Origin: Chelativorans sp. YIM 93263 | Lineage (GTDB): Bacteria; Pseudomonadota; Alphaproteobacteria; Rhizobiales; Rhizobiaceae | DNA length: 64,000 bases | Assembly: GCF_028767125.1 (NCBI RefSeq) | Contig: NZ_JAKCWP010000003.1 | Coordinates: 186,001-250,000 of the forward strand | Direction of reading: 5' to 3' | Shown here: piece after piece, positions 1,333 through 20,992 of the stretch | How the letters are laid out: each line of letters opens with the position of its first letter | Numbering within the stretch: the stretch's first letter is position 1 | Made by a program: the position numbers and the translations under genes | The notes under the pieces: model-generated | What the model saw: the letters and a program-made list of their open reading frames with translations, nothing else | Databases searched by the model: none | What the model was told of the DNA's origin: nothing

Positions 1333-2312
1333 AGGCGACGGGAGCCCGTGAAATCATCGCCAACGCGACCATCGCGCTGCTGCTTCTGGCCGTTCCGCTG
1401 GCCGCGTCCGCGATGGGCGAGCCGTTTTACGTAACGCTTGCAACGCGCATCACCATCCTGGCGCTCGCGGCGGCGGGGCTCAACATCGCGCTGGGCCTGG
1501 GCGGGCTGGTATCCTTCGGCCACGCGGCCTTCTTCGGCCTCGGTGGTTACGCGGCCGGAATCATGGCGGCGCATGCGTTCAATGCGGAACCGTTCTTCCT
1601 CGGCCTCGACTCCACGACCTCCATGCCGGTGATCTGGCTGGTCGCGATCGTGACGTGTGGGCTCGTGGCGCTACCCATCGGGGCCATCAGCCTGCGCACC
1701 TCGGGCGTCTATTTCATCATGATCACGCTCGCGTTCGCGCAGATGATCTACTATTTCGCGAACTCCTGGCCGGCTTATGGCGGCCAGGACGGCCTTCCGA
1801 TCTTCATTCGCAACACCTTTCCCGGAGTGAACACCGCGCAGCCCCTGCCATTCTTCCTGTTGTGCTACGCTGCGCTTCTTCTGGCGCTTCTCATGTTCTG
1901 GTCGTTGCGCAATTCACGTTTCGGCGCCGCACTGCAGGCCGCGAGGCAGAATTCCGTGCGGGTTTCCGCCGTCGGCATCGCCCCTTTCAATGTGCGGCTG
2001 GTTGCGTTCGTCATCTCGGCGATGGTCACGGGGCTGGCCGGCGCGTTATTTGCCGATCTGAACAGGTTCGTCAGCCCCTCAATGCTGTCGTGGCACATGT
2101 CCGGCGAGCTGATCGTTCTTATCGTCCTGGGCGGCATCGGCCGCCTCTTCGGTCCGGTCGCCGGAGCGATGCTTTTCGTCCTGCTCGAGCATTTCCTCGG
2201 TGGGGTTACCGAGCGCTGGCAGCTCTTCTTGGGGCTCATTCTGCTCGGCGTCGTCCTGTTTGCGCGTGGCGGCCTTCTGGGCATGATCGCGGGGAAAGCG
2301 CGCCATGGCTGA
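1329..2312 (+). CDS. livM: Branched-chain amino acid-type ABC transporter permease (LivM family)
   Basis: Second inner-membrane permease subunit, 327 residues, about nine to ten hydrophobic segments. The family motifs ALGLGGLVSFGHAAFFGLGG and, near the C terminus, ELIVLIVLGGIGRLFGP are visible. It overlaps the LivH gene by four bases at the start and the LivG gene by eight bases at the end, as in compact Liv operons. With LivH it would form the membrane channel served by LivG and LivF. Nothing unusual in length or motifs. Confidence 0.93.
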   Translation: MKATGAREIIANATIALLLLAVPLAASAMGEPFYVTLATRITILALAAAGLNIALGLGGLVSFGHAAFFGLGGYAAGIMAAHAFNAEPFFLGLDSTTSMPVIWLVAIVTCGLVALPIGAISLRTSGVYFIMITLAFAQMIYYFANSWPAYGGQDGLPIFIRNTFPGVNTAQPLPFFLLCYAALLLALLMFWSLRNSRFGAALQAARQNSVRVSAVGIAPFNVRLVAFVISAMVTGLAGALFADLNRFVSPSMLSWHMSGELIVLIVLGGIGRLFGPVAGAMLFVLLEHFLGGVTERWQLFLGLILLGVVLFARGGLLGMIAGKARHG

Positions 2313-3054
2313 GCCGGTCCTGACAATCCGGGAGCTCGAAAAGAGCTTTGGTGCGCTGAAGGCTACCGACGGGGTGAGCATCGATCTGATGCCGGGCGAG
2401 ATCCATGCGCTCATCGGCCCCAATGGCGCCGGCAAGAGTACACTGATCCATCAGGTTTCCGGCTCCATCAAGCCTGACCGCGGCACGATCCATTTTCTCG
2501 GCCAGGACATGGCCGGGCTGGATGTGGCAGCACGGGCCCGGTTTGGACTGGCACGCAGTTTCCAGACGTCGTCACTCGCACAGGAATTCTCGGCCTTGCG
2601 CAATGTCATGCTGGCGGTTCAGGCCAAGCAGGGCTCCAGTTTGCGCGTTTTCCGCCCGGTGATGCGCGACCGCAGCCTGATCGAGCCTGCGCTGGCGATA
2701 CTCGAGCGCGTCGGACTGGCCGGGCGCGCGCATGTCCCCGCGGCGGAGCTGTCGCACGGCGAGCGCCGGCAACTCGAGATTGCCATCGCGCTGGCGCTGG
2801 AGCCGAAGGCGTTTCTCCTGGACGAGCCGATGGCCGGCATGGGGCCGGAAGGCTCCAAGGTGCTGACCGGGTTTCTCGACGATCTGCGGCATGAAGCGCC
2901 GATTCTCCTGGTCGAGCACGATATGGATGCCGTCTTTGCGCTGGCCGATCGCATTTCCGTTCTGGTCTACGGACGGATTATCGCATCGGGAACGGTCGAG
3001 GAAATCCGCAACGATCCGGAGGTCCGCCGGGCCTATCTTGGAGACGCCGCATGA
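2305..3054 (+). CDS. livG: Branched-chain amino acid-type ABC transporter ATPase (LivG family)
   Basis: Cytoplasmic ATPase of 249 residues. Walker A GPNGAGKS is at residues 38-45, the signature LSHGERRQ at about 149-156 and Walker B AFLLDEP at about 169-175, followed by the switch histidine in LVEHDMD. The signature has SHG rather than SGG, a variation common in LivG. The start ATG 2305 has a GGGGAAAG ribosome site six bases upstream. It overlaps LivM by eight bases and LivF by four. Confidence 0.94.
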   Translation: MAEPVLTIRELEKSFGALKATDGVSIDLMPGEIHALIGPNGAGKSTLIHQVSGSIKPDRGTIHFLGQDMAGLDVAARARFGLARSFQTSSLAQEFSALRNVMLAVQAKQGSSLRVFRPVMRDRSLIEPALAILERVGLAGRAHVPAAELSHGERRQLEIAIALALEPKAFLLDEPMAGMGPEGSKVLTGFLDDLRHEAPILLVEHDMDAVFALADRISVLVYGRIIASGTVEEIRNDPEVRRAYLGDAA

Positions 3055-3737
3055 GCCTGCTGGACGTCAGGAACGTGGAAACCTTCTATGGCGCGTCACA
3101 GGCGCTCTTCGGCGTGAGTCTTGATGTGAAGGAGGGAGAAGTCGTTGCGCTCATGGGCCGCAACGGTATGGGCAAGACGACGACGATCAGCTCCATCTTT
3201 GGCCTCACCCGTCCGCGTTCGGGATCGATCCGTTTCGCGGACCGGGAGATTGCCGGTATGCTGCCCCACCGTATCGCACGGCTGGGCCTCGGTCTTGTGC
3301 CCGAAGGCCGCCGCTGCTTTCCCAACCTCACAGTGTCGGAAAATCTCATGGCGGCGGCGCGCGGAGAGGACTGGACATTTGAGAAGGTCGTCGAGCTCTT
3401 TCCCCGGCTGGGCGAACGGCGTGACCAGTACGCCGACTCCCTTTCCGGAGGCGAGCAGCAGATGCTGGCGATAGGCCGAGCCCTGATGACCAATCCGAGA
3501 CTCCTCGTCCTCGACGAGGCGACCGAGGGGCTGGCACCCGTCATCCGCCATGATATCTGGCGTGCGATCGCCAGGCTCAAGGCGGAAGGCCAGTCCATTC
3601 TCATAGTCGACAAGACGCTCTTGGAGCTTTTGGCCCTGGCCGACCGCTGCTTTGTTCTGGAAAAGGGCGTAACCGTCTTCGAAGGCTCGCCCCAGGCGCT
3701 CACACCGGAGCTTCAGGACCGCTATCTGGGGGTTTGA
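3051..3737 (+). CDS. livF: Branched-chain amino acid-type ABC transporter ATPase (LivF family)
   Basis: Second ATPase subunit, 228 residues. Walker A GRNGMGKTT (36-44), signature LSGGEQQ (131-137) and Walker B with LLVLDEATEGLAP (from 151) are intact; the LVPEGRRCFPNLTV block is diagnostic of LivF. The usual switch histidine region reads IVDKTLLELLALAD, so the D-loop is followed by K rather than the more common H; LivF proteins vary here. The start overlaps LivG (ATGA). This is the last gene of the operon; it converges on kynureninase with only 53 bases between stops and no clear terminator there. Confidence 0.93.
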   Translation: MSLLDVRNVETFYGASQALFGVSLDVKEGEVVALMGRNGMGKTTTISSIFGLTRPRSGSIRFADREIAGMLPHRIARLGLGLVPEGRRCFPNLTVSENLMAAARGEDWTFEKVVELFPRLGERRDQYADSLSGGEQQMLAIGRALMTNPRLLVLDEATEGLAPVIRHDIWRAIARLKAEGQSILIVDKTLLELLALADRCFVLEKGVTVFEGSPQALTPELQDRYLGV

Positions 3738-3790: not shown

Positions 3791-5038
3791 CTAAGTCACC
3801 GGTGCCCTGACGGCATAGCGTTCGTCTTTCCACGCGGCGGTGCGCAGAACCTCGTCCAGAATATCGACAGCGCGCCAAACATCTTCATATCCGATGTAGA
3901 GCGGAGCAAAGCCGAAGCGGATGGTGGACGGCGCGCGGAAGTCACCAATCACCCCGCGAGCGATCAACGCCTGCATGATCTCGTAAGCGTGCTCATGGGC
4001 GAAGGAGACCTGGCTTCCGCGCCGGGCTCCTTCACGGGGGCTCTCGAGCGACAGGCCGAAGGAGCCGCACCTGACCTCCACCAGATCGATGAAAAGATCG
4101 GTGAGAGCAATGCTCTTTTCGCGCACGACGGCCATATCGACATCCTGCCAGATGTCGAGGGCACCCTTGAGCACCCGCAGTGATAAAACCGCCTGCGTGC
4201 CGCACTGGAACTTGCGGATGCCGGGGTCCGCATCGAAACTCTGTTCGAATGCAAAGGGGCGCGCATGGCCCCACCAGCCGCTCAATGGCTGGCGTGCCTC
4301 GGCCTGATGCCGTTTGGCCGCGTAGATGAAGGCCGGGCTTCCGGGGCCGCCATTCAGATATTTGTATGTACAGCCGACGGCGAAGTCCGCGCCTGCAGCG
4401 TCAAGCTCGACCGGCAAGGCGCCGGCCGAGTGGCAGAGGTCCCAGATCGCCAGCGCGCCGGCGTCATGGATCTTGCGTGTCAGCGCCGCCATATCCTGCA
4501 GCTCGCCTGTCTTGTAATTGACGTGATTGATGAGGACGGCGGCGACCCGCTCGTCGAGCAGATCCTCAATGACGGGCGCATCCACGCCTGCGAGCCGAAC
4601 CTGCGTCTGCGGCCGGGATGCTGCCGCTCCCGCTGCCATGTAAATGTCAGTGGGAAAGCTGTCGCCTTCCGCGACAATGACGGTGCGATCCGGCCGCAAG
4701 CCCATGGCCGCGTGCAGTGCTTTGTAGATGTTGATCGACGTTGTGTCGCTGACGACCACCTGCCCGGCGGCGGCACCGACAAGGCGGCCGATCCTATCGC
4801 CGAGTTCCAGTGGCAGGTCGAACCATCCTGCATCGTTCCAACTGCGGATAAGCCCTTCAGCCCATTCCTCCCGCGTGGCTCTTTCAAGCTCGCCTAATAC
4901 TTCCTGCGATGCCGGCCCCAGGGAATTGCCGTCGAGATAAATAACGCCTTCGGGGAGAGTAAAGCGTTTACGCATGGAGCGTAACGGGTCGGCAGCATCC
5001 ATCGCTTCAATAGCGGCTGAGTCCGGCGTTCCAGTCAT
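3791..5038 (-). CDS. kynU: Kynureninase
   Basis: PLP-dependent hydrolysis of L-kynurenine to anthranilate and L-alanine (or the 3-hydroxy analogue), in the cytoplasm. The 415-residue protein shows the family landmarks YLDGNSLGP (34-42), SDTTSINIYK, NHVNYKTG, the PLP aspartate region WDLCHSAGALP (199-209) and the PLP lysine in CTYKYLNGGPGSPAF (Lys about 226). The start is ATG 5038, preceded by GGAGG at ideal spacing; a longer reading to 5128 would overlap the next gene and has no comparable site. It is the last gene of a minus-strand run that includes a 2-aminobenzoyl-CoA-type monooxygenase, which suggests its anthranilate is fed into a CoA-dependent pathway (inference). Confidence 0.95.
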   Translation of the reverse strand: MTGTPDSAAIEAMDAADPLRSMRKRFTLPEGVIYLDGNSLGPASQEVLGELERATREEWAEGLIRSWNDAGWFDLPLELGDRIGRLVGAAAGQVVVSDTTSINIYKALHAAMGLRPDRTVIVAEGDSFPTDIYMAAGAAASRPQTQVRLAGVDAPVIEDLLDERVAAVLINHVNYKTGELQDMAALTRKIHDAGALAIWDLCHSAGALPVELDAAGADFAVGCTYKYLNGGPGSPAFIYAAKRHQAEARQPLSGWWGHARPFAFEQSFDADPGIRKFQCGTQAVLSLRVLKGALDIWQDVDMAVVREKSIALTDLFIDLVEVRCGSFGLSLESPREGARRGSQVSFAHEHAYEIMQALIARGVIGDFRAPSTIRFGFAPLYIGYEDVWRAVDILDEVLRTAAWKDERYAVRAPVT

Positions 5039-5079
5039 ACTGATATCCTCCAAGGCAGCCGAGGGGTTGGACCGGACGC

Positions 5080-5652
5080 TCAGAATCGGCGGCTGACATA
5101 GGGTGAATCCTTCAGTCCGAAGCGCCACGGCGTTTCAGCCGCGCGAGTGATGCCAATACGCGTCCCGACAGCGACAGGAACATTCTCCGTTGCAAGCCTT
5201 AGCGCAAAAGGTGCCGCATAAAGGGGTGCTCCGTCCAGCGTCCCGTCCACACCGAGCGCCTGACAGAGGCGGCCCGGACCCGAGCAGAGCTGCAAGGGAG
5301 AGGTCATTCGCCGCCGCTCCTGCATCCGTTCTATACCCGCCGTCGGCTGTAGCGCACGGATCAGCACCGCACTTCCTGGAAGGCAGACAAAGTTCAGACA
5401 CCAATGAATCCCGTAGGATCGATAGACATACGCATGCGCGGGCGCCCCGAACATAGCCCTGTTCCGGGGCGTCGGCCCTCGGTAGCTGTGCGAGGCCGGG
5501 TCCTCGTGATCGTAAGCCTCCGTTTCTACAATAAGGCCGCCCGCAGAACCCAAAGAGAGCTGCGCCCCTACAAGGTCCTTCGCCACCGCAGGCGCGGGCT
5601 GCGAAAAAAACTCAATCAGTTTGGTGCTATGGGACGTATTCGGTGCACACAT
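5080..5652 (-). CDS. DNA-3-methyladenine glycosylase (AAG/MPG family)
   Basis: Base-excision repair enzyme that removes alkylated purines. The 190-residue protein is typical of bacterial AAG-type enzymes. It carries VETEAY (42-47), which contains the catalytic glutamate, then [19 protein letters not shown] (51-69) and the [16 protein letters not shown] block (75-90) that lines the base-flipping pocket, and [11 protein letters not shown] further on. It starts 12 bases after the Rid-family stop and ends 41 bases before the kynureninase start, so it is probably co-transcribed with catabolic genes. No functional link is evident; it may be a passenger. Confidence 0.92.
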
Positions 5653-5664
5653 CTGTACCGTCGC

Positions 5665-6060
5665 TCAGTCCGGAACCACTGCCATGGCCTGTATCTCGAC
5701 CTTGGCACGGTCTTCCATGAGTGCAGCGACCTGCACCGCGGCCATTGCCGGGAAATGCCGGCCGATTACGTCGCGATAGGCGCGTCCGATTTCCTTCAGG
5801 TTCGACAGATATTCCTGCTTATCGGTATAATACCAGGTCATCGAAGTGATGTGCTCGGGCCGGGCGCCGGCCTCGCCGAGTATCGCGACGACATTCGCAA
5901 GCGTCTGGCGCACCTGCCCCACCAGATCGTCGCTTTCAAATTCGGAGTGGCTGTTCCATCCGATCTGGCCACCGACGAAGACCAGCCTTCCGCGCGCGGC
6001 AACTCCATTTGCGTAGCCGACGGGCTTGGCCCATCCATCGGGTTGCAGAATTTCGTGCAT
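5665..6060 (-). CDS. Rid (YjgF/YER057c/UK114) family protein
   Basis: Small protein of 131 residues with the Rid fold motifs GRLVFVGGQIGWN, QVRQTLANVVAILGEAG and a C-terminal VEIQAMAVV. Rid proteins hydrolyse reactive enamines/imines; relatives act as 2-aminomuconate deaminases in tryptophan breakdown. Aligned by eye to E. coli RidA, the substrate-binding arginine (VEVARLP) is replaced by alanine here (VQVAALM, Ala about 113), so it belongs to a subgroup without that residue and its chemistry may differ. Start ATG 6060 has CGGAG six bases upstream. It sits in the anthranilate-type cluster, where removal of an amino group after ring reduction is expected. Confidence 0.88.
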   Translation of the reverse strand: MHEILQPDGWAKPVGYANGVAARGRLVFVGGQIGWNSHSEFESDDLVGQVRQTLANVVAILGEAGARPEHITSMTWYYTDKQEYLSNLKEIGRAYRDVIGRHFPAMAAVQVAALMEDRAKVEIQAMAVVPD

Positions 6061-6143
6061 TCAAATCTCCGGGCGATTGGCGGGAATAGAAGCGAGCAAT
6101 GGGGCCGGCGGGACGACACCGGCGGCAGAGCGGATCATTAAAT

Positions 6144-7292
6144 TCATTTCATACCCATTGTCTGCCTGGAAATGACGACCTTCTGGACATCGCTTGCACC
6201 TTCATAGATGCGCAGGGCGCGTATCTCGCGATAAAGGCTCTCGACGATGTGGCCCTTACGCACGCCGTCTCCGCCGTGAAGCTGCACTGCCTTGTCGATG
6301 ACCTGCTGGGCGCGCTCGGTAGCGAAGAGTTTTGCCATGGCCGCCTCGCGCGTGACACGGTCCGCACCCATGTCCTTCGTCCATGCGGCGCGGTAGACGA
6401 GCAGGGCCGCCGCGTCGACGTCGAGTGTCATGTCGGCGATATGGCCCTGAACCATCTGCAACTCGGCCATCGGCGCGCCGAACAGTTCGCGTTCGCTCGC
6501 CCTTTTCAGGCTCTCATCGAGTGCGCGGCGGGCGAAACCCAGCGCCGCCGCGCCCACAGTGGAGCGGAATACGTCTAGCACGGACATGGCGATGCGGAAG
6601 CCCTTGCCCGACTCGCCGATCAGGGCCGAGGCGGGAATGCGCGCATCTTCAAAGGACAAGCGCGCGAGTGGGTGCGGCGCCATAACCTCCAGCCGCTCGG
6701 CGATGTTCAGCCCCTTGGTATCAGCGGGGACGAGAAAAGCCGAAAGGCCCTTGGCGCCCGGAGCCTCTCCGGTACGGGCGAAGACCACATGGACATCGGC
6801 AATGCCGCCATTGGATATCCACGTCTTCTCGCCGTTAAGCACGTAATGGTCGCCCTGGCGCTCGGCCGTCATGTCCATATTGGCCACGTCGGAGCCGGAG
6901 CGCGGCTCCGTGAGAACGAAGGCCGAAATCGCCTTCCCCGCGCGCGTTTTTTTCAGCCAGCGTTGTTGCTCGGGCGAACCGAAAAAGCTGATCGCGCCCG
7001 TGCCGAGACCCTGCATGGCGAAGGAGAAATCAGCCAGGCCGTCATGACGCGCCAGCGTCTCCCGCGTGATGCAAAGCGTGCGCACATCGAGCGGTGCGGG
7101 AGTGTCGGGATCGACGCCCGTCGGTTTCAGCCAGCCATCTTTCCCGAGCTTCGCCACCAGTTCCCGGCAGGCGGTATCGACATCATCATGGGCAACGGGC
7201 AGGTTGGCCGCACACCATTCCTCCAGCCGCTCGGCGTAGTGGCGATGACGGTCCTCGAAAAAGGGCCAGGAAAGAAAGGAGCGATCAGGCAT
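6144..7292 (-). CDS. Acyl-CoA dehydrogenase
   Basis: FAD-dependent alpha,beta-dehydrogenation of an acyl-CoA. The 382-residue protein has the signatures [30 protein letters not shown] and a C-terminal catalytic-glutamate region [14 protein letters not shown], followed by a quinone/ETF-type tail. The start at ATG 7292 is chosen because CAGGAG stands seven bases upstream; an extension to 7439 would run through the palindromic repeat. It belongs to the run of beta-oxidation-like genes downstream of the 2-aminobenzoyl-CoA monooxygenase/reductase, so a cyclic dienoyl or cyclohexenoyl-CoA substrate is plausible but unproven. Confidence 0.92.
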
Positions 7293-7340
7293 TTCCAAGC
7301 TCCTGAGTGGAAACGAGCAATCGCAGGCCGTGATGAGAGG

Positions 7341-7480
7341 CGCCCCTCCTCCCCCTCGACAGGGGAGGTGCCGAGCGCAGCGAGGCGGAGGGGGTGCGCC
7401 TGCGTGGACAGCGAGGGACGAGCACCCCCTCCGGCCCACCTTCGGCAGTCCACCTCCCCCCTCGACGGGGAGGTGGGACA
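7341..7480. repeat. Compound palindromic intergenic repeat (rhizobial RIME/REP-like)
   Basis: The 231-base gap between acyl-CoA dehydrogenase and enoyl-CoA hydratase is filled by nested palindromes: 12-base perfect arms CGGAGGGGGTGC (7386-7397) and GCACCCCCTCCG (7422-7433); outer arms GGGGAGGTG (7362-7370) and CACCTCCCC (7451-7459); and two small end hairpins around CTCGAC. This resembles the mosaic palindromic units dispersed in rhizobial genomes. No second copy was seen in this window. Confidence 0.8.
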
Positions 7481-7523
7481 GCTAACCAGAGCCGGGACGA
7501 TCGGGTGTGAAGTCCAGCGCTCA

Positions 7524-8342
7524 TCAGTTCCCCTCGAAGACCGGTTTTTCCTTGGCGACGAAGGCTTTGTAGGCGCGTTCGAAATCCTTCGTCTGCATGC
7601 AGATCGCCTGCGCCTGGGCTTCCGCCTCGATCGCCTGCTCCAGGCCCATCGACCATTCCTGATTGAGCTGGGTCTTGGTGATTCCGTGCGCGAAGGTCGG
7701 GCCTGAGACGATGCGCTCGGCGAGTGTGAGCGCCTCCTCGTCCAGTTCTTCGGCCCCAACAAGGCGGTTGAAGAAGCCCCAGCGCTCGCCCTCCTCCCCG
7801 CTCATCGTGCGGCCGGTATAGAGAAGCTCGGCGGCACGCGCCTGTCCGATTATCCTCGGCAGGATGGCGCACGCGCCCATGTCGCAGCCGGCGAGGCCGA
7901 CGCGCGTGAAAAGGAAGGCCGTCTTGGCCTCGGGGGTGGCAATGCGCATGTCCGAGGCCATCGCCAGAATCGCGCCGGCGCCCACGGCGACACCATCCAC
8001 GGCGGCGATAATCGGCTTTCCGCAATTGAGCATCGCCTTGACCAGATCGCCAGTCATGCGGGTGAAGGCGAGCAATTCCTTCATCTCCATGCCGACCAGC
8101 GGGCCGATGATGTCGTGGACATCGCCGCCGGAGCAGAAATTCCCGCCATTGGGCAGCAGCACCACCGCGTCGACATCATCGGCATGAGCAATGTCGCGAA
8201 ACGCATCGCGTAGTTCGGCGTAAGATTCGAAAGTGATCGGGTTCTTCCGTTCCGGCCGATCAAGCTGCACAATCCCCACGCGCCGCTGCACCCGCCAGCG
8301 GAAATGTTTCGGCGCAAAATCGGCCATCTGCACAGGCTTCAA
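7524..8342 (-). CDS. Enoyl-CoA hydratase/isomerase family protein
   Basis: Crotonase-fold protein of 272 residues, with oxyanion-hole segments [10 protein letters not shown] and [18 protein letters not shown]. Of the two classical hydratase glutamates, the second (AAELLYTG) is present, but the first position (PE in classical enzymes) reads FT in [12 protein letters not shown], so ordinary hydratase chemistry is uncertain. I use TTG 8342 as start: GGGAGG lies eight bases upstream, within the end of the MarR gene, and TTGA overlaps the MarR stop. An ATG at 8327 is the alternative. It is probably part of the aromatic-CoA pathway run from the promoter upstream of the monooxygenase. Confidence 0.88.
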
Positions 8343-8815
8343 TGTTCAGCCTCCCAGTTGCTGCGGAACGCATGGAGCATTTCGGACAGGCGCTTCACCT
8401 CGTGCGCATCAATGCCACCCAGAAGTTCCGAAATCCATTTCTCGTGCGCCGCCGCCATTTCCCGAAAACGTTCTGTCCCGGTTTGCGTCAGCTTGACGAC
8501 GGAAGTGCGCCTGTCGCCGTCGCGCTTGGCTCGGACCACATGTCCATCCGTCACCAGCCGGTCGACAATGCCCGTCACATTGCCGTTCGAGACGAGCAGG
8601 AAGCGCGACAGGTCACTCATCAACATGCCGTCCGGCTGACGATAGAGCGCCGACATCACGTCGAAACGCGGCATCGTTGAATCAAATTCACGCTTGAGCC
8701 GCTCGCGCAGTTCCGATTCCACAATACGCGTCGTGCGCAAGAGCCGGATCCAAAGCCTCAGGCGCTCTTTGTCTCCGCCCTTCGGATCGATCACCGACAA
8801 CGACGCGCTCACCAT
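8339..8815 (-). CDS. MarR-family transcriptional regulator
   Basis: Cytoplasmic winged-helix regulator, 158 residues, with helix-turn-helix [25 protein letters not shown] and the wing motif [16 protein letters not shown] (the DxRR feature of MarR). It is embedded in the operon: its start overlaps the SDR stop by seven bases and its stop overlaps the enoyl-CoA hydratase start by four. MarR regulators with aromatic-acid or aromatic-CoA effectors often sit inside such pathways, so autoregulation of this cluster by a CoA thioester is a reasonable inference. No operator was identified with confidence. Confidence 0.92.
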
Positions 8816-9567
8816 GTCTCGCCCCCCGAAATGGAAACCGCTTGCCCGTTCACGGAGCCGGCGCCCTTGCTGCAGAGCCAGACGACCGCGGAGGCGACTT
8901 CGTCGGGCTGAATGAATTTCTTCTGCGGGTTGCCGGCGAGCAGGCTTGCGCGTGCTTCTTCTTCCGTTCGTCCGGTCTTTTCGACGATCCGGGCAACCGA
9001 CTCCTGCAGCATCTCGGTTTCGACGTAACCCGGGCAGACGGCATTCACCGTCACGCCGGTTTTGGCCAACTCGGTGGCCAGCGCGCGCATCAGTCCGACA
9101 ACGCCATGTTTCGATGCGACGTAAGGGGCGACATAGCCGTAGCCCTTCAGCCCTGCCACAGAGGCAATGAAAATGATGCGTCCGGCCTTTCGCTCAGCCA
9201 TTCCCGCCAGCGCGGGCTGGACGGTCAGGAAAGATCCCGTGAGATTGACGTCGAGCGTCTTCTTCCAGTCGGAAAGCTTCGTTTTTGCCGCCGGCGCGCT
9301 GGTGGCCGTGCCGGCATTGGCGACCACGATATCAAAGGGGCCGCGCTCGGACTCGGCTTGTGAATACAGGCGCTCGACCGATTCCGGATCCGTGATATCG
9401 GCGGGGATGGCATGAATGTGCGGATGCTCGCTGGCCACCGCCTCGAGAGCCTCGGCGGTTCGCCCGCATATGGTGACCGCAACGTCGGCCTCGGCGAGCG
9501 CCAGGGCGATCTCACGGCCGACACCCGAGCCGCCGCCTGTTACCAATGCGTGCCGTCCGGCGATCAT
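8809..9567 (-). CDS. SDR-family NAD(P)-dependent oxidoreductase, 3-hydroxyacyl-CoA dehydrogenase-like
   Basis: Short-chain dehydrogenase of 252 residues. The nucleotide-binding motif TGGGSGVG is at residues 10-17, NAG at about 84-86, catalytic Ser136, Tyr149 and Lys153 (YVASK), and the C-terminal [14 protein letters not shown] is typical of FabG-like enzymes. The start ATG 9567 has AGGAGG eight bases upstream. By position it should oxidise a hydroxyacyl-CoA intermediate in the pathway begun by the upstream monooxygenase/reductase; the sequence alone does not fix the substrate. Confidence 0.9.
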   Translation of the reverse strand: MIAGRHALVTGGGSGVGREIALALAEADVAVTICGRTAEALEAVASEHPHIHAIPADITDPESVERLYSQAESERGPFDIVVANAGTATSAPAAKTKLSDWKKTLDVNLTGSFLTVQPALAGMAERKAGRIIFIASVAGLKGYGYVAPYVASKHGVVGLMRALATELAKTGVTVNAVCPGYVETEMLQESVARIVEKTGRTEEEARASLLAGNPQKKFIQPDEVASAVVWLCSKGAGSVNGQAVSISGGETW

Positions 9568-9613
9568 GGGAGAGGCCTCCTAGGTCTGCAGGTGTTTCGG
9601 TAAAGCAGCATCG

Positions 9614-11905
9614 TCACACCTTACCCGACATCGCGTCCTGCCGCTCCTGGAGGCGATAGGCCTGATCGCGGCCGGGCAGATAGGGATCCGGCCATTTCAT
9701 ATGCCGATCGCCCAGGCTCACCGCGGCGTGCAGCGTCCAATAAGGATCGGCCAGGTGGGGCCGCGCGAGGCAGACCAGATCCGCCCTGCCCGCCATCAGG
9801 ATCGAGTTCACGTGATCCGGCTCGAAGATATTGCCGACCGCCATGGTCGCCATGCCCGTCTCGTTGCGAATGCGGTCGGAGAACGGCGTCTGGAACATGC
9901 GGCCGTAGACGGGCCGTGCACGATTCGAGGTCTGTCCGGCCGAGACATCGCAGATATCCACGCCGGCCGCCTGCAGCATGCGCGCGATCTCGACCGCATC
10001 CTCCGGCTCTATGCCTTCGTCGCCCACCCAGTCATTGGCGGAGATGCGCACGGAAATCGGCTTCTCCTCCGGCCATGCCGCGCGAACCGCACGGTACACC
10101 TCTAGCGGGTAGCGCATGCGGTTTTCCAGGCTACCGCCGTACTCGTCGGTACGCCGGTTGGTCAAAGGCGTGATGAAGGACGACAGCAGATAACCGTGCG
10201 CCATGTGCAATTCAAGCATGTCGAAGCCGGCGCGGTCGGCCATTTCCGCTGAGGCGACGAAGGCGTCGCGCACCTCATCCATATCCTGCCGGGTCATGGC
10301 TTTCGGCACCGGGTTAACCTCGGACCAGGGCACCTCCGAGGCCGCCATGACGGGCCAGTTGCCCTCGGCGAGCGGGGCATCCATCTCCTCCCAGCCTAGC
10401 TGAGTCGAGCCTTTCCCTCCGGAATGGCCGATCTGGGCGCAGATCTTGGCTTCGGTTTCGCTGTGCACGAAATCCACGATCCGCTTCCAAGCGGATTCGT
10501 GCTCCGGCTTGTAAAAACCCGGACAACCCGGGGTAATACGTCCCTCGGGGCTCACGCATGTCATCTCGATGTAGATGAGGCCCGCTCCGCCCTTGGCGCG
10601 CTCGGCGTAATGCGCGAAATGCCAGTCGGTCGGGCAGCCATCCACCGCCTTGTACTGCGCCATGGGCGAGACCACGACGCGGTTCTTCAGATCCATGTCG
10701 CGCAGCCTGAAGGGGGCGAACATCGGGGCACGCGGGCCGTTGATGTTGTTGCCGGCGCGGCGTTGGAACCACGCTTCCGCTTCGTTCAACCAGTCAGGAT
10801 CGCGCATGCGAAGGTTTTCGTGGCTGATGCGCTGTGAGCGTGTCAGCAGCGAGTAGTTGAACTGGACGGGATCGAGATGGAGATATCGCTCCACATCTTC
10901 GAACCACTCCAGCGAATTGCGTGCGGCCGACTGCAGTTTCAAAACTTCCGTGCGGCGAGCGTCCTCATACTTTTCGAAAGCAGCCGGCAGCGTCGGTTCC
11001 GAATGGATATGGTCAGCCATCGCCACGGCGCTTTCGAGCGCTAGCTTGGTGCCGGAGCCGATGGAGAAATGCGCGCTCGCCGCCGCATCGCCCATCAGGG
11101 CCAGATTCTCGTGCGACCAGCGCTCGCACAGCACGCGCGGGAAGTTGATCCAGGCCGAGCCACGGACGTGATCGGCGTTTGATATGAGCCTGTGCCCGTC
11201 CAGATGCGCGGCAAAAATCCGCTCGCAGGTGGCAATCGACTCTTCCTTCGACATGTCGCCGAAGCCGAACTTCGCCCAGGTCTCCTCCGAGCACTCGACG
11301 ATGAACGTCGCCGTATCGTCGTCGAACTGGTAGGCATGGGCCCAGACCCAGCCGTGTTCCGTCTCCTCGAAGACAAAGGTGAAGGCGTCGTTGAATTTCT
11401 GATGCGTCCCAAGCCAGACGAACTTGCATTTGCGGACATCGATGTCGGGCTTGAAGACGTCTGCAAATGCGGCGCGGCTTTTGGAATTCAACCCGTCCGC
11501 AGCAATAACAAGATCGTGCTTAGCCATAAGCGGGCGCGGATCGTCGATTTCCGACTGAAAGTGCATCTCGACGCCCAGCGCGCGCGCCCGCTCCTGCAGG
11601 AGCGTAAGCAGCTTCTTGCGCCCGATGCCGCAGAAACCGTGGCCGGTGGAGACTGTCCGCGTCCCGCGATAGACGACGGCGATGTCGTCCCAATAGGCGA
11701 AATGTTCACGGATCGCCGAGGCGCTTACGGGATCGTTCGCTTCAAGATTGGTGAGCGTCTCGTCCGACAGAACGACGCCCCAGCCAAACGTGTCGTCCGA
11801 CCGGTTGCGCTCATAGACCGCGACCGCATGATCCGGATCACGCAGTTTCATGGAAACTGCAAAGTAGAGCCCGGCTGGTCCACCTCCAAGAACCGCAACT
11901 CTCAT
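9614..11905 (-). CDS. Two-domain FAD monooxygenase / old-yellow-enzyme reductase (2-aminobenzoyl-CoA or salicylyl-CoA type)
   Basis: A 763-residue fusion. The N-terminal half (about 1-385) is an aromatic flavin monooxygenase: GGGPAG (7-12), [10 protein letters not shown] and the FAD-ribityl motif [19 protein letters not shown]. The C-terminal half (from about 400) is an old-yellow-enzyme domain: [39 protein letters not shown] and [13 protein letters not shown]. This architecture is known from 2-aminobenzoyl-CoA monooxygenase/reductase of Azoarcus evansii, which hydroxylates and then reduces the ring, and from salicylyl-CoA 5-hydroxylases. With kynureninase nearby, 2-aminobenzoyl-CoA is the more likely substrate. 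Start ATG 11905 has AAGGAGG at nine bases; ATG 11914 abuts the ribosome site and is unlikely. Confidence 0.93.
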
Positions 11906-11977
11906 TCCATCCATCCTCCTTGCAGGCCATCCAACGACTCGCACTGAAAGGAAGATATTTCAAGTATAAAATTTATG

Positions 11978-12049: not shown

Positions 12050-13327
12050 TCAGCCGCGGAACCGGTGACTCTCGATAGATGCAGGCTTCATTTCAATCGA
12101 GAAGCCCGATTTCTCGGGCGGCATGTAGGCAGCGTTCTCAATGCGACAGGGATCGAGGAAATGCTCGTGCAGATGATCGACATACTCGATGACGCGGTCC
12201 TCCCTGGTTCCCGAGATCGCCAGATAATCGATCATGGATATATGTTGAACGTATTCGCACAATCCAACTCCGCCGGCATGCGGCCACACCGGGAGCTCGT
12301 ATTTCGCGGCCATGAGGAGGACGGCGATGACCTCGTTCAGTCCGCCCATGCGACAGGCGTCGATTTGGACGATATCGATGGCGCCCTGGGCAATCAGCTG
12401 TTTGAAGATGATCCGATTCTGGCACATCTCGCCCGTGGCCACCTTCACCGGCGCGACGGCCTCTCGGATCTTGCGATGGCCGGCAATATCGTCGGGACTG
12501 GTCGGCTCCTCGATAAAATAGGGATCGGCAAAAGCCAGCGCCTTCATCCAATCGATGGCTTCGTTCACCTCCCAGACCTGGTTGGCATCGACCATAATGC
12601 GGCGGTCCGGGCCGAGCGCCTCACGCGCGATCCGCAGACGGCGGATGTCATCGTTGAGATCGCCGCCGACCTTCAGCTTAATATGGTCAAAGCCGGCCTC
12701 GACCGCTTCTCGGCAAAGCCGCCTCAGCTTGTCGTCATCATAGCCGAGCCAGCCGGCCGACGTTGTGTAACAGGCATAGCCTTCCGCCTCCAGTTTGGTG
12801 ATACGCTCAGCTTTTCCCGGTTCAGCCTTCTTCAGAAGTTCAAGCGCTTGATCGGGCGTGAGGACGTCGTGCAGATAACGGAAGTCGACAAGCCGGACGA
12901 TTTCCTCCGGGCTCATCTCGCCAACCAGACGCCAGACTGGCTTGTCTTCCGCCTTTGCCCAGAGATCCCAGACGGCATTGACGACGGCGGCGGTCGCCAG
13001 GTGCATCGCGCCCTTGTCGGGCCCGATCCAGCGCAGTTGGCTATCGCCGGTCACATGGCGCCAAAAACGCCCAGCATCAGCCTTGATCCACTCGAGGTCG
13101 AGCCCCACGATGAGATGGCGCATCGCCTCGATCGCGGCACAGCAGATGTCGTTGCCCCGCCCTGTCGTAAAGGTCAGTCCATGACCCGCCAGCCCCTCCG
13201 TATCGGTTTCGAGGACGACATAAGCCGCCGAATAGTCGGGAGCGGTATTCATCGCGTCCGAGCCGTCCAGGTTCTGCGAGGTCGGGAAGCGTAGATCGAA
13301 AGTTTTGAGGTCTGTGATCTTGGTCAC
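12050..13327 (-). CDS. fucD: L-fuconate dehydratase (enolase superfamily)
   Basis: Removes water from L-fuconate to give 2-keto-3-deoxy-L-fuconate. The protein (about 425 residues) strongly recalls the Xanthomonas enzyme: LRFPTSQNLDGSDAMN, PDYSAAYVVLETD, GRGNDICCAA, FRYLHDVLT, YTTSAGWLGY, the KLKVG catalytic lysines, metal ligands in VDANQ, IEEPTSPDD and ATGEMCQNR, and PHAGGVGLCEYVQH. I choose GTG 13327, which has an AGGA site and gives an N terminus matching the family; a TTG at 13354 is an alternative. Last gene of the long minus-strand operon that starts at 22312. Confidence 0.93.
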   Translation of the reverse strand: MTKITDLKTFDLRFPTSQNLDGSDAMNTAPDYSAAYVVLETDTEGLAGHGLTFTTGRGNDICCAAIEAMRHLIVGLDLEWIKADAGRFWRHVTGDSQLRWIGPDKGAMHLATAAVVNAVWDLWAKAEDKPVWRLVGEMSPEEIVRLVDFRYLHDVLTPDQALELLKKAEPGKAERITKLEAEGYACYTTSAGWLGYDDDKLRRLCREAVEAGFDHIKLKVGGDLNDDIRRLRIAREALGPDRRIMVDANQVWEVNEAIDWMKALAFADPYFIEEPTSPDDIAGHRKIREAVAPVKVATGEMCQNRIIFKQLIAQGAIDIVQIDACRMGGLNEVIAVLLMAAKYELPVWPHAGGVGLCEYVQHISMIDYLAISGTREDRVIEYVDHLHEHFLDPCRIENAAYMPPEKSGFSIEMKPASIESHRFRG

Positions 13328-13367
13328 GGATGCTGTCCTGTTTCGCGGATTCAATTTTCAGCGGGCG

Positions 13368-14213
13368 TCAGTCGTCGGCGCGAACGGCCTGTCTCTGGCT
13401 TCCCAGACCTTCAATACCGAGTTCGACCGTATCGCCGGACTTCAGGTATCGGGGAGGCTTCATGCCCATACCGACGCCCGGCGGCGTGCCGGTGGATATG
13501 ACGTCGCCGGGCTGCAGCGACATGAAGCGGCTAAGATAGGAGACGAGGAAGGCCGGTCCGTAGACCATCGTCTTCGTTGAGCCGTCCTGCATCGTCTCGC
13601 CATTCACCTTGAGCCACATCTTGAGGTCGAGCGGGTCGGCCACCGCGTCGCGCGTGACCAGCCACGGGCCGACCGGGCCGAAAGTATCGGCCGATTTGCC
13701 CTTGGTCCACTGACCGTGATGTTCGATCTGGAAGGCACGCTCGGAGACGTCGTGCACCGTGCAGAAGCCGGCCACATAATCCAGCGCTTCGTCCTCGGAA
13801 ACGTATTTTGCCGTCTTGCCGATGACGATCCCGAGTTCAACCTCCCAATCGGTTTTCTCGGAACCGCGCGGGATAATCAGATCGTCGTTCGGTCCGCAGA
13901 TCGCGGAGGTTGCCTTCATGAAGATGATCGGCTCGGGCGGGACTGTCGCGCCTGTTTCGGCGGCGTGGTCGGAGTAGTTGAGGCCGATGCAGATGAATTT
14001 CCTGGTACCGGCCACGCAGGGGCCGAGGCGCGGGCTGCCCTCGACGGCGGGAAGGTCAGCGGTGTTGATACGATTCAACCCGGCAAGCGCTGCCGGATCG
14101 AGTGCAGCACCGGAAAGATCGGAAAAATGGCCGGAGAGATCGCGGAGAGTGCCGTTCTCGTCGAGAAGACCGGGGCGTTCCTCACCGGGAGCGCCGTAAC
14201 GCAGCAGTTTCAT
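13368..14213 (-). CDS. Fumarylacetoacetate hydrolase-family protein, probable 2,4-diketo-3-deoxy-L-fuconate hydrolase
   Basis: FAH-fold hydrolase of 281 residues with the family marks FICIGLNYSDHAAETG, PIIFMKATSAICGPND, the metal-ligand segment DWEVELGIVIGK, FGPVGPWLVTRD and the ending DVISTGTPPGVGMG. Enzymes of this group split 2,4-diketo-3-deoxy sugar acids to pyruvate and a hydroxyacid (L-lactate from the fucose intermediate). Placement between the keto-deoxy dehydrogenase and the fuconate dehydratase supports this step; ureidoglycolate lyase-type alternatives are less likely here. Start ATG 14213 has AAAGGA at seven bases. Confidence 0.86.
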   Translation of the reverse strand: MKLLRYGAPGEERPGLLDENGTLRDLSGHFSDLSGAALDPAALAGLNRINTADLPAVEGSPRLGPCVAGTRKFICIGLNYSDHAAETGATVPPEPIIFMKATSAICGPNDDLIIPRGSEKTDWEVELGIVIGKTAKYVSEDEALDYVAGFCTVHDVSERAFQIEHHGQWTKGKSADTFGPVGPWLVTRDAVADPLDLKMWLKVNGETMQDGSTKTMVYGPAFLVSYLSRFMSLQPGDVISTGTPPGVGMGMKPPRYLKSGDTVELGIEGLGSQRQAVRADD

Positions 14214-14229
14214 AGTGATCCTTTCACAG

Positions 14230-14964
14230 TCAGATGGTCCAGCCGCCATCGATGGCGTAGGCTTGGCCCGTCGTGTAGGTGGCGCTGGCTAGATACATCG
14301 CCAGGTCGGCGATTTCCTCGGCCGTTCCGAGACGGCCCATCGGCTGGCGCGCGATGAAGGCGGCCCGTGTGGCCTCGTAGTCGCCGCCTGCTTTCATTCT
14401 CTCCTGCAGCGAAGGGCTTTCCACCGTGCCGGGGCAGATGGCGTTGCAGCGGATGCCCTGGTCGACATAATCGGCGGCAACCGACTTGGTCAGGCCAATC
14501 ACCGCGGCCTTGGTCGTCGTATAGACGAAGCGGTTGGGTACGCCCTTCATGCTGGAGGCGACGGAGGACATGTTGATGATGGCGCCCTCACCGCGCTCAA
14601 GCATGCCCGGCAGGACGGCGCGAATGGTGCGCATCATCGAGCGGACATTCAGGTCGAGCGCGAATTCGAAGTCCTCATCTGTCGCTTCCAGTATAGTGCC
14701 GGAGTGGACGAAGCCCGCGCAATTGAAAAGAACGTCGAACGCGCCATGCTCGGCGACAAGCGATGTCACAGCCGCATCGTCACGCACGTCGAGATGCGCC
14801 GTTTCCAGATCTGCCTCACCAGCAAGTTTGTCGAGCGCCTCATCATTGATGTCGGTAGCGAGTACGCGGGCACCGGCTGCGGAAAAGGCCAGAGCGCTTG
14901 CGCGTCCGATCCCCTGCCCGGCCGCTGTCACCAGCACGCGTTTTCCTTGCAGCTTTTCTGTCAT
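14230..14964 (-). CDS. SDR-family dehydrogenase, probable 2-keto-3-deoxy-L-fuconate dehydrogenase
   Basis: NAD-dependent short-chain dehydrogenase, 244 residues. It opens with KLQGKRVLVTAAGQGIGRA (TxxxGxG cofactor loop). Asp38 after the second strand (LATDI) suggests NAD preference. NCAG, the catalytic serine in NMSSVASSM and YTTTK are present, and it ends in GQAYAIDGGWTI. The N terminus and the QGIRCNAICPGTVESPSL block resemble the 2-keto-3-deoxy-L-fuconate dehydrogenase group. Start ATG 14964 (GGAGG 12 bases upstream). Its stop is 16 bases before the FAH-family gene. Confidence 0.86.
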   Translation of the reverse strand: MTEKLQGKRVLVTAAGQGIGRASALAFSAAGARVLATDINDEALDKLAGEADLETAHLDVRDDAAVTSLVAEHGAFDVLFNCAGFVHSGTILEATDEDFEFALDLNVRSMMRTIRAVLPGMLERGEGAIINMSSVASSMKGVPNRFVYTTTKAAVIGLTKSVAADYVDQGIRCNAICPGTVESPSLQERMKAGGDYEATRAAFIARQPMGRLGTAEEIADLAMYLASATYTTGQAYAIDGGWTI

Positions 14965-14995
14965 GGCTTCTGAAGGCCTCCGTGTTTGCCGCGCC

Positions 14996-15448
14996 TCAGC
15001 CGGCGGATTTACGACGTTCGACGATGTAAATGTGATCGGTGACCAGAACAACTTCGTCGTTCTGGTTGATGACTTCGCACCGCTCGAAGACACGGCCTGC
15101 CTCGGGGCGCTTGGGATCGTCCTCCTTTGCAACGATGCTGATGCGGGTGCGGATTGTGTCGCCGATGAACACCGGCTTGACGAAACGCAACCGGTCATAG
15201 CCGTAGGAGAAGGCTACCGGATTGATCTCGCTCGCTGTCAGGCCGACGCCGATGGCAAACACCATCGTGCCATGGGCGATGCGCTGGCCGAAGGGCGTAT
15301 CTTCCATGAATTCCGCATCCATGTGATGCGGGAAGAAGTCGCCCGTGTGGCCGGCATGTACGACGAAATCCGTCTCGGTTATCGTGCGTCCGTTGGTCTC
15401 CCGGCCGTCACCGATCTCATAGTCCTCGAAATAGCGTGTTCGTTCCAT
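14996..15448 (-). CDS. MaoC-family (hot-dog) dehydratase-like protein
   Basis: Hot-dog fold protein of 150 residues: YFEDYEIGD, the R-hydratase-type catalytic segment [12 protein letters not shown] (FxxxHxD...), and [17 protein letters not shown]. MaoC proteins hydrate enoyl-CoAs. No CoA step is expected in L-fucose oxidation, so its presence in this operon is unexplained; it could dehydrate another sugar-acid derivative or act on a product. It lies 31 bases upstream of the keto-deoxy dehydrogenase and 29 bases downstream of the Gfo/Idh/MocA gene. Confidence 0.85.
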
Positions 15449-15477
15449 TTGCGATTGGCTCCCGTGTTCCGACCCGC

Positions 15478-16554
15478 TCAGGGGCGCTGCTCAAGCGGCG
15501 TCGCAGGTGCTGCGCTCGAACGATAGGCGGCTTCCACAAGCGCCATGGTGTTCCACGCATCTTCCGCGGAGCCGATCAGGCGGTCATCCTCGCCGCTGAC
15601 AAAGCGCTGAAGATTGGCCATGCGGCCGACAAAGGCGTCGGGAAACCACGTACCTTCCAGCGGCACCTGCACCCATTCGCTACCGCCGGCTGGAAAAACC
15701 TCGAGGATATCCGGCTCGCCGTGCGGATAATCCAGGTTGACGCCGAGTTGCAGATAGGCCGCCCCTTTCGTTCCGCAGACGCGGAACTCGCAGGCCTGGT
15801 GGCGGCGGCCGAACGGGTGGTCGTGGTTGACCGAAAGCTGGCAGCGGACGCGGTCGCCATAGTCGAGGATCGCGCTTGTGCGCGTCTGCGCCATATCGTG
15901 GTTAGGGTGGCCGATGGTCTTGGCGTGCACGCCTTTCGGATCGCCCAGCATATGCCGGATGGCATCGAGATAGTGGATGGAGTGCATGGCGATTTCTACG
16001 CGCGGCAGGTCTCTCAGGAAGGCCCACAGGTGCCAGGGCGTGTCGAGCGCGAGCCAGACATCGAAGTCGACGATTTCGCCAAGCAGACCCTTCTCAATGG
16101 CATCACTTAGCGCCAACATCATCGGGGCGAAGCGAAGCTGGAAATTGACCGCAGCAACCAGTTCTTTCTCGCGGCACACGGCCAATATGTCGGTCGCCTC
16201 GCCAAGATCGCCGCCCATCGGCTTCTGTATCAAGACCGGTGCGCCATTGGGCAAGCCCCTCAGGACGTCGGCATGGCGGGCGGGCGGCGTGGCGAGGTCG
16301 AACAGCGCACCTTCGACGGCGGCGGCCTCCTCGGGCGTCTCAAAGGCCGTCACGTTCCATTCTCGTGCCAGCTTTTCGGCCTTTTCCCGATCCGGGTCGT
16401 AGAGCCCGGCAATGGGGATGCCGGATTTCTTCCAGGCCGGGAAGTGAGCATCGCCGACGATGGAGCCAGCACCGAAGGTGACGACCGGGCGGGGGTTGGC
16501 GGGCGCAGGCCAGTGCTGGCGCAGGCTCGCCGGATCGAATAGCGCGTCAGTCAT
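15478..16554 (-). CDS. Gfo/Idh/MocA-family oxidoreductase
   Basis: NAD(P)-dependent sugar oxidoreductase of 358 residues. The Rossmann part has [17 protein letters not shown] and [16 protein letters not shown], then the [12 protein letters not shown] motif (the EKP lysine position, here QKP), and a C-terminal beta-sheet domain with [16 protein letters not shown]. In this operon the first oxidation, L-fucose to the lactone, has no other obvious candidate, so this protein may be the sugar dehydrogenase; that is inference. Start ATG 16554 with GGAGGAGG upstream, overlapping the mutarotase stop by eight bases. Confidence 0.88.
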
Positions 16555-16876
16555 GATAGAACACCTCCTCCATCATGGCCCACCACTCGCCCTCCTTACG
16601 GGTTTCAAGCGGCTCCTGACAGGGCATGCAGACCGACCACCATTCCTGGGTCACGGGATCGGCTGCCATCTTGGCGGCGTCGGCCTCGAAGTCTTCGCCG
16701 TGATACTCCCAGTAGCCGAACAGCAGGTTTTCCGGCTCCTTGAGGAAGATCGAGTAGTTTCGGATGTTGCAGGCGGAAATCATGGCCAGGACATCCGGCC
16801 ACGCCTCCGCGTGCAGGCGCTTGTATTCGGCCACCTTGTCGGGCTTGAGACCAATGACCATGCCCATGCGTTGCAT
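16547..16876 (-). CDS. RhaM-family L-rhamnose/L-fucose mutarotase
   Basis: Small protein of 109 residues with the RhaM-type features MGMVIGLKPDKVAEYKRLH (the H of YxxxH is catalytic), NYSIFLKEPENLLFGYWEY and the tail EEVFYHD. These enzymes speed interconversion of sugar anomers so that a dehydrogenase can use the right one. Start ATG 16876 follows GGGAGG by five bases; a longer reading to 16909 would overlap the enolase-superfamily gene. Context favours L-fucose (or another 6-deoxyhexose). Confidence 0.9.
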   Translation of the reverse strand: MQRMGMVIGLKPDKVAEYKRLHAEAWPDVLAMISACNIRNYSIFLKEPENLLFGYWEYHGEDFEADAAKMAADPVTQEWWSVCMPCQEPLETRKEGEWWAMMEEVFYHD

Positions 16877-16893
16877 CTCGTCCTCCCTGCGTT

Positions 16894-18003: not shown

Positions 18004-18007
18004 TCGC

Positions 18008-19105: not shown

Positions 19106-19109
19106 GGAG

Positions 19110-19976: not shown

Positions 19977-19978
19977 CG

Positions 19979-20875: not shown

Positions 20876-20944
20876 GATTTTCTATCCGTCGTCTCGCAAT
20901 AATCGGGCTCAGCCTGAGGGCATCTTCGCACGCACCGGCTGAAG

Positions 20945-20981
20945 AAAAAGGGGCGCGCACCTCAAACGGGTGCCGCCCCTG
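20945..20981 (-). terminator. Hairpin with T-run between binding-protein and permease genes
   Basis: Arms pair 49-55 with 74-80 and 57-61 with 69-73 (all plus 20900), with one bulged C and a 7-base loop; on the minus strand the stem is followed by TTTTTC. It stands 12 bases after the binding-protein stop, as a partial terminator that would leave the binding protein in excess over the membrane parts. Confidence 0.75.
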
Positions 20982-20992
20982 TAGTTTCGGCG

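Follow-up and report, generated by a model that had tools for sequence, protein, structure and literature searches.

A Chelativorans locus that very probably couples kynurenine-pathway genes to the anthraniloyl-CoA route

The closest described system to the locus reported here is the 2-aminobenzoyl-coenzyme A (2-aminobenzoyl-CoA) pathway of Azoarcus evansii, whose gene cluster (Schuhle 2001) reportedly comprises a fused flavin monooxygenase/old yellow enzyme (OYE) reductase, a ligase, a Rid protein, a MarR regulator, a LIV-type binding protein and three beta-oxidation-type genes. Our locus is from Chelativorans sp. YIM 93263 and centers on positions 3791 to 11944 of a 64-kb stretch (the window; NZ_JAKCWP010000003.1, 186,001 to 250,000) of a genome of 4.25 Mb that is 99.99% complete. 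We also analyzed L003, the 20 kb directly left of window base 1 on the same contig (an L003 coordinate less 20000 gives the window coordinate). Like the reported A. evansii cluster, the locus encodes a full-length fusion enzyme, a ligase, Rid and MarR proteins, a LIV-type binding protein and beta-oxidation-type enzymes; unlike that system, it also holds genes leading from tryptophan to anthranilate, and an operator-like motif is common to both of its operons. Sequence comparison indicates with high probability that its genes form a regulon for the catabolism of tryptophan, kynurenine and anthranilate. For A. evansii itself, the reactions are known and beta-oxidation is stated as what follows in the accessible text of a review (PMC4539516).

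The aromatic branch of the kynurenine pathway (kynA, kynB, kynU) is a second point of comparison. The locus resembles it in a tryptophan 2,3-dioxygenase and a kynureninase that both score over their family cut-offs, and in a formamidase candidate; it differs in that this candidate is of the alpha/beta-hydrolase kind (the metal-dependent KynB was not searched for) and in the lack of an anthranilate 1,2-dioxygenase match in this genome.

Both pathway halves are already known, and gene lists with parts of both exist. In the accessible parts of the reports concerned, the abm pathway is listed for Cupriavidus JMP134 and CH34 and kyn genes for CH34 (PMC2842291, PMC8879955), while Streptomyces thermocarboxydus DF3-3 has abmG, kynU and a tryptophan dioxygenase gene, with a path from tryptophan to anthranilate offered as speculation (PMC9277890). 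Those parts describe no joint cluster, no joint control and no role of the fusion enzyme as the next step for tryptophan. Two ligases of Arthrobacter Rue61a gave anthranilate-CoA ligase activity in extracts, and one of them is encoded beside a fusion gene on a 113-kb plasmid, again from accessible text (PMC3534580). On that strain's pAL1, a ligase gene adjoins the fusion gene and a Rid gene is present, much as here; unlike our locus, pAL1 has cupin, fumarylacetoacetate hydrolase (FAH) and thioesterase genes in place of those for a short-chain dehydrogenase/reductase (SDR), a crotonase and a dehydrogenase, and its fusion enzyme has Asp at position 429. The other known use of kynurenine-derived anthranilate and anthraniloyl-CoA, according to the accessible text of a further paper, is quinolone synthesis (PMC3053476). 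A joint tryptophan/anthraniloyl-CoA locus is not described in the literature found, as far as its accessible text goes, with subscription papers lying outside the search. What seems to be new is the union of the two halves under a probable common operator, a split between two gene neighborhoods, and a crotonase without both hydratase glutamates.

Gene content and proposed pathway

Left of the kynureninase gene, the ligase and tryptophan 2,3-dioxygenase genes share a plus-strand operon with a LIV-type transporter as its last five genes, which ends at window position 3737. On the minus strand, the genes 3' of the fusion gene include those for the SDR, the crotonase and the acyl-CoA dehydrogenase. 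The features are as follows, in window coordinates unless L003 is named.

L003 15619-16488, minus: alpha/beta hydrolase, diverging from the ligase operon
L003 16529-16554, plus: operator-like motif between the hydrolase and ligase genes (28.6 bits)
L003 16705-18330, plus: aryl-CoA ligase related to the benzoate-CoA ligase family
L003 about 18327-19163, plus: tryptophan 2,3-dioxygenase (426 bits, cut-off 391)
L003 19187 to window 329, plus: binding protein of a LIV-type ABC transporter (PF13458)
301-1332, 1329-2312, 2305-3054 and 3051-3737, plus: the transporter's two permeases and two ATPases, which come after the binding protein in relatives
3791-5128, minus: kynureninase (TIGR01814, 342 bits, cut-off 246); start more likely near 5041
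5080-5652, minus: 3-methyladenine DNA glycosylase, between the Rid and kynureninase genes (NF002003, 248 bits, cut-off 182)
5665-6060, minus: Rid-family enamine/imine hydrolase (PF01042, 76 bits; under the TIGR00004 cut-off)
6144-7439, minus: acyl-CoA dehydrogenase (PF00441, PF02770, PF02771); start more likely at 7292
7524-8342, minus: crotonase-family enzyme (NF006107, 478 bits, cut-off 330)
8339-8815, minus: MarR-family regulator (PF12802, PF01047)
8809-9567, minus: SDR (PF00106)
9614-11944, minus: fused flavin monooxygenase/OYE reductase (NF006101, 1293 bits, cut-off 1078; profile positions 1-763 of 768)
11951-11976, minus: operator-like motif 5' of the fusion gene (32.4 bits, the top site in 84 kb)

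An earlier note on this DNA had named seven genes on one strand, from kynureninase to the fusion enzyme, and family profiles place all seven on the minus strand; the glycosylase gene at 5080-5652 had been overlooked. The cluster edge that it gave, 11905, agrees with what is the likelier start codon of the fusion gene, since homology begins at residue 14 and an AGGAGG lies a few bases 5' of that ATG. It had also proposed looking left of base 1 for the remaining genes, and the ligase, the tryptophan 2,3-dioxygenase and a formamidase-related hydrolase are all encoded there within 5 kb. The dioxygenase and the kynureninase each have one match in the genome, which also holds one full-length fusion enzyme. 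A second ligase-like reading frame, at G000:C1:800048-801646, has one internal TAG and is perhaps a decayed gene.

From the gene content, linkage, residues, motif and lack of a match to two competing ring-cleavage enzymes, we infer the activities, and the sequence of reactions beyond the fusion enzyme, as follows. The dioxygenase would convert tryptophan to N-formylkynurenine, the alpha/beta hydrolase would strip the formyl group, and the kynureninase would cleave kynurenine to anthranilate and alanine. The ligase would then turn anthranilate into 2-aminobenzoyl-CoA, on which the fusion enzyme would act by C5 hydroxylation and ring reduction, giving 2-amino-5-oxocyclohex-1-ene-carbonyl-CoA. 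The Rid protein probably aids release of the ring nitrogen as ammonium, and the SDR, an Asp-type crotonase and the acyl-CoA dehydrogenase may open the alicyclic CoA ester and pass it to beta-oxidation. The ABC transporter would import an aromatic carboxylate, and control of both halves probably lies with the MarR protein, by way of the shared operator.

The best solved relative of the ligase is the anthranilate-CoA ligase 4wv3 (300 bits), followed by the benzoate-CoA ligase 2v7b (271 bits). The kynureninase scores 458 bits against 1qz9, presumably the Pseudomonas enzyme, and at most 141 bits against the three other kynureninase sequences listed, which we take to be human. At two aligned positions, which we assume to govern the preference for kynurenine or 3-hydroxykynurenine, it carries Trp and Thr, as does 1qz9, whereas the residues in 3e9k are His and Asn. 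For the whole transporter binding protein, the nearest structures are 4evq and 4ey3, which we take to be binders of aromatic acids.

The alpha/beta hydrolase matches the kynurenine formamidase 4e11 at E 8e-19, with its HGGYW and GHSAG motifs aligned, and is closer to 2pbl, an uncharacterized structure labeled as a putative esterase. Its association with dioxygenase and kynureninase genes (kyn genes) in related loci, given below, argues for it as the candidate kynurenine formamidase. The nearest structure, 2pbl, may itself be a bacterial kynurenine formamidase.

Linkage and control of the two gene sets in relatives

We compared 220 loci with fusion genes, namely 80 near loci, 26 from plasmids, 35 from a class sample and 79 from a phylum sample; the near loci are the best 80 of 456 fusion-protein relatives in the scanned genome contigs, and many loci end at contig ends or at the 10-kb flank. 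Loci with at least two of the SDR, crotonase and dehydrogenase genes were called type A, and those with cupin and FAH genes and fewer than two of these were called type B. By this rule, 177 loci are type A, 11 are type B and 32 are neither, some of the unclassified ones having genes below threshold or past the contig. The window locus has the type A genes.

A gene order recurs in the near loci, often with parts missing: divergent hydrolase, fusion gene, SDR, MarR, crotonase, dehydrogenase, ligase, kynureninase, dioxygenase and transporter. The dioxygenase and/or kynureninase genes lie within 10.5 kb of the fusion gene in 31 of the 80 near loci, and in L007-L010 and L012 the dioxygenase gene lies 151 to 1,515 bases past the locus edge, by coordinates that assume the same contig. 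A whole-genome search of 35 genomes selected from the 80 found the dioxygenase in 28. Among annotated genomes, Thalassospira marina has kynU, kynA, ligase and fusion genes in one cluster, the cluster of Ruegeria pomeroyi is without a kynureninase gene, and Aminobacter and Ensifer have fusion enzymes 53-54% identical to that of the window, with FadB-like and thiolase genes added.

The association extends beyond close relatives. In the class sample of 192 genomes, 34 of which have the fusion gene over its cut-off, the dioxygenase was found in 22 of the fusion-bearing genomes against 12 of the 158 others, and the kynureninase in 22 against 17; these counts ignore relatedness and genome size, include the window's own genome (without it, each is found in 21 of 33) and take matches at E 1e-40, some of them under the family cut-off. 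Kyn genes lie within 10.5 kb of the fusion gene at only 3 of 35 class places, so in the wider class it is commoner for these genes to share a genome than to be neighbors. The phylum sample comprises 397 evenly drawn Pseudomonadota genomes, with the fusion gene in 75 over its cut-off and in 83 at E 1e-200; 69 of the 79 places examined are type A, with kyn genes within 10.5 kb in 17 of these. A full set of dioxygenase, kynureninase, hydrolase and ligase genes lies near the fusion gene in 22 of the 220 loci. The linkage of this gene set is not due to chance, given the recurring order, the co-occurrence in genomes and the ligase, dioxygenase and hydrolase genes just left of base 1.

The presence of the hydrolase gene is tied to that of the kyn genes. 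In the phylum sample, 9 of 17 type A loci with a dioxygenase or kynureninase gene have it, against 2 of 52 without (Fisher p 2e-5), and in the near set the counts are 24 of 30 type A loci with kyn genes and 6 of 44 without, kinship being ignored in both comparisons.

Other partners of fusion genes include anthranilate-yielding ones, such as the quinaldine degradation genes on pAL1 and an alkylquinolone dioxygenase gene on pRLCBG43, as well as indolepyruvate-oxidoreductase-like genes and cyclase-family genes, which we take to be isatin-hydrolase-like. By their predicted functions, these partners likewise point to anthranilate. Could the Chelativorans genes act on anthranilate that comes from indole, isatin or quinolones, with the kynurenine genes a recent add-on of little use? 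The core module does occur beside other front ends without kyn genes, and in 25 of the 74 type A near loci a cyclase-family gene, but no kyn gene, lies within 10.5 kb. We nevertheless consider this very unlikely for the present locus: dioxygenase, hydrolase, kynureninase and ligase are all encoded in this genome's cluster, and the operator-like motif is found in both of its promoters. Separately, a haloarchaeal fusion enzyme, 43% identical, is encoded on a Natronococcus plasmid (L131) with crotonase, dehydrogenase, Rid, LIV-type transporter and acyl-CoA synthetase genes, and the module may extend to archaea.

The motif was modeled as a 26-base matrix built from 48 sites in the fusion-gene promoters of relatives; 71 promoters were available from the 80 near loci, and the 23 without the regular expression for the core were left out. 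A scan of the 84 kb formed by L003 and the window gave two stand-out sites, those listed above, of which the one in L003 lies outside the training set. Reverse complements of the two aside, no other site exceeds 3.1 bits, and the maximum over 20 simulated sequences was 6.6. The hydrolase-ligase gap of L011, also outside the training set, scores 36.6 bits. Across 1.59 Mb of related loci, there are 127 hits at fusion-gene promoters and 34 further hits of at least 18 bits, where overlapping hits on both strands count as separate and the 34 include a few at fusion genes whose start was not found by the script. Further hits include one near 4.4 kb in L066 and L074 (Reyranella-type), where an indolepyruvate-oxidoreductase-like gene starts, and one beside a cyclase gene of L008. 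A first scan found no 9-mers shared between the window's two promoters, and the matrix scan then found both sites. No inverted repeat was found in the fusion-gene promoter, so the motif there is at most partly palindromic. The MarR protein probably controls both halves of the locus through this motif, to which it would bind.

Neighborhood types and competing routes

The NCBIfam model that the fusion enzyme matches, NF006101, is named salicylyl-CoA 5-hydroxylase, and plasmid fusion genes of both neighborhood types bear that name. The enzyme might then be what its name says, with the cluster degrading salicylate via gentisate and the kyn genes chance neighbors. Cupin and FAH genes do adjoin some fusion genes, and in the window an FAH-fold gene at 13368-14249 lies 1.4 kb from the fusion gene. 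That gene belongs to a sugar-type operon, however, and neither it nor its neighbor has a kept match in the 80 related loci; the large reading frames flanking the fusion gene showed no cupin gene.

The OYE half of the enzyme also bears on this question, our assignment to anthranilate or salicylate being made by neighborhood and residues. The window enzyme has Ala429, His580, His583 and Tyr585, with the His-x-x-His-x-Tyr motif intact. At position 580, the first His of the motif, type A loci have His in 176 of 177 (one gap) and unclassified rows in 32 of 32, while type B loci have Gln in 7 of 11 (L092, L121, L124, L168, L195, L198, L229) and His in the other 4, all Actinomycetota. Outside the Actinomycetota, Gln580 thus occurs in 7 of 7 type B rows and in 0 of 175 dearomatizing-type rows, a complete tie but one based on two independent origins, too few for a test. 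These two origins are forced by starred branches in a quick tree of 54 rows, in whose alignment the trait's own columns were kept (2 of 782), and an independent-pairs test of Gln580 against neighborhood had 3 pairs, of which 2 agree and 1 is without difference (p 0.5). In a more careful tree of 51 rows, the window enzyme groups with the Chelativorans rows (100/99), among type A rows. Asp429 was dropped as a marker of the gentisate type; the Actinomycetota row L171 has it without cupin and FAH genes, and it may be a lineage trait.

With a type A neighborhood, His580 where all 7 cupin/FAH loci outside the Actinomycetota have Gln, and a kyn linkage that recurs, we reject the salicylate route, which is very unlikely here. 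The earlier note had kept salicylate as the main alternative substrate, and on these grounds it is disfavored. As a separate observation, Actinomycetota fusion genes in L118 (pAL1), L127, L128 and L129 occur with cupin, FAH, thioesterase and Rid genes, sets that suggest an end route of the gentisate type or by 5-hydroxyanthranilate. In L127, a tryptophan dioxygenase gene and a kynureninase-like gene are present as well.

That the kynurenine genes instead supply 3-hydroxyanthranilate for NAD synthesis, with the CoA module unrelated, is barely credible: kynureninase and tryptophan dioxygenase do serve that route in some bacteria, but the genome has no match to 3-hydroxyanthranilate 3,4-dioxygenase at E 0.001 (kynurenine 3-monooxygenase was not searched for), and the kynureninase is nearest to 1qz9. 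As a catabolic route, too, 3-hydroxyanthranilate was rejected for want of a match to this dioxygenase. The catechol route of anthranilate was likewise rejected, its key dioxygenase (the large subunit AntA of anthranilate 1,2-dioxygenase) having no match in the genome at the same threshold. The note's proposal of a route through dearomatized CoA thioesters and not through catechol is thereby supported, with ligase and dioxygenase genes adjoining, no AntA match and a neighborhood that is not of the gentisate type.

Several observations weigh against a regulon that breaks down tryptophan, kynurenine and anthranilate. The ligase falls slightly short of the cut-off of the benzoate-CoA ligase family (367 bits against 375), and the NCBIfam family name for the alpha/beta hydrolase is hormone-sensitive lipase. 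No dioxygenase or kynureninase gene was seen within 10.5 kb in 49 of the 80 near loci, some of which are cut short, and no dioxygenase was found in 12 of the 34 fusion-bearing class genomes, so the core module has further substrates or sources too. The active Arthrobacter plasmid ligase lies in a type B neighborhood. Finally, Cupriavidus metallidurans CH34 has reported abm and kyn genes yet did not grow on anthranilate, according to the accessible text (PMC8879955).

The lower pathway and flanking genes

The steps after the fusion enzyme are named just "beta-oxidation" in the accessible text of the review cited above (PMC4539516). Both classical hydratase glutamates are absent from all 178 aligned crotonases, that of the window included; position 125 is Ile in 158, Met in 10, Cys in 5, Ala in 4 and Val in 1, position 145 is Phe in all 178, and Asp154 is invariant. 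These rows share more than 55% identity with two cluster crotonases and comprise, besides the window's, 176 from type A loci and 1 unclassified; the comparison drew on three classical hydratases, chosen by their glutamate motif. Asp154 aligns with an Asp of PaaG (4fzw) that we take to be catalytic. Given the missing glutamates and this alignment, the crotonase is more likely an isomerase or a ring-opening hydrolase than a hydratase.

A reading in two parts can be built on these residues, which we put forward tentatively, being inclined to doubt that both parts hold together. In the first, the fusion enzyme would have two modes that can be read from its sequence: a form with an intact OYE half that dearomatizes and pairs with SDR, crotonase and dehydrogenase, and a cupin/FAH-paired form with an altered reductase site (Gln580 outside the Actinomycetota) that may be a pure 5-hydroxylase. 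In the second, amino loss assisted by the Rid protein would be followed by ring opening by the Asp-type crotonase as a hydrolase or isomerase. Anthranilate-grown Arthrobacter Rue61a contained anthraniloyl-CoA and the CoA esters of C7H7NO3 and C7H8O4 acids, in the accessible text of that report (PMC3534580). The C7H8O4 ester would fit a deaminated intermediate, a step that would suit Rid. The Arthrobacter plasmid cluster is type B, which makes the analogy loose and weakens the view of Actinomycetota type B enzymes as pure 5-hydroxylases.

Some features within and beside the cluster concern other matters. The glycosylase is probably a passenger in its operon, as its gene has the same place in L007 and L012 and is absent from L008-L010; L007 and L012 are both Chelativorans loci, and a FadB-like gene takes that place in L008. 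The gap between the crotonase and dehydrogenase genes (7330-7480) holds nested GC-rich inverted repeats that resemble a rhizobial intergenic palindromic element. To the right of the cluster, 12050-22312 is a sugar-type operon with genes for two enolase-superfamily enzymes, the FAH-fold hydrolase, an SDR, a MaoC-like protein, a GFO/IDH-type enzyme, an L-rhamnose mutarotase family protein and a sugar-type ABC transporter. It resembles L-fucose or L-rhamnose catabolism, with the MaoC-like gene an odd member.

The linkage described here recurs across the Pseudomonadota. The anthraniloyl-CoA route, though known, has received little study beside the catechol route of the textbooks, to which it is an alternative; if the proposed pathway is true, many Pseudomonadota would have a complete aerobic route for tryptophan without catechol or 3-hydroxyanthranilate. 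The current name of the fusion enzyme, salicylyl-CoA 5-hydroxylase, is probably wrong in these bacteria. The crotonase without hydratase residues, the Rid protein and the OYE residue that tracks dearomatizing and gentisate-type neighborhoods offer testable handles on the steps that follow the fusion enzyme.

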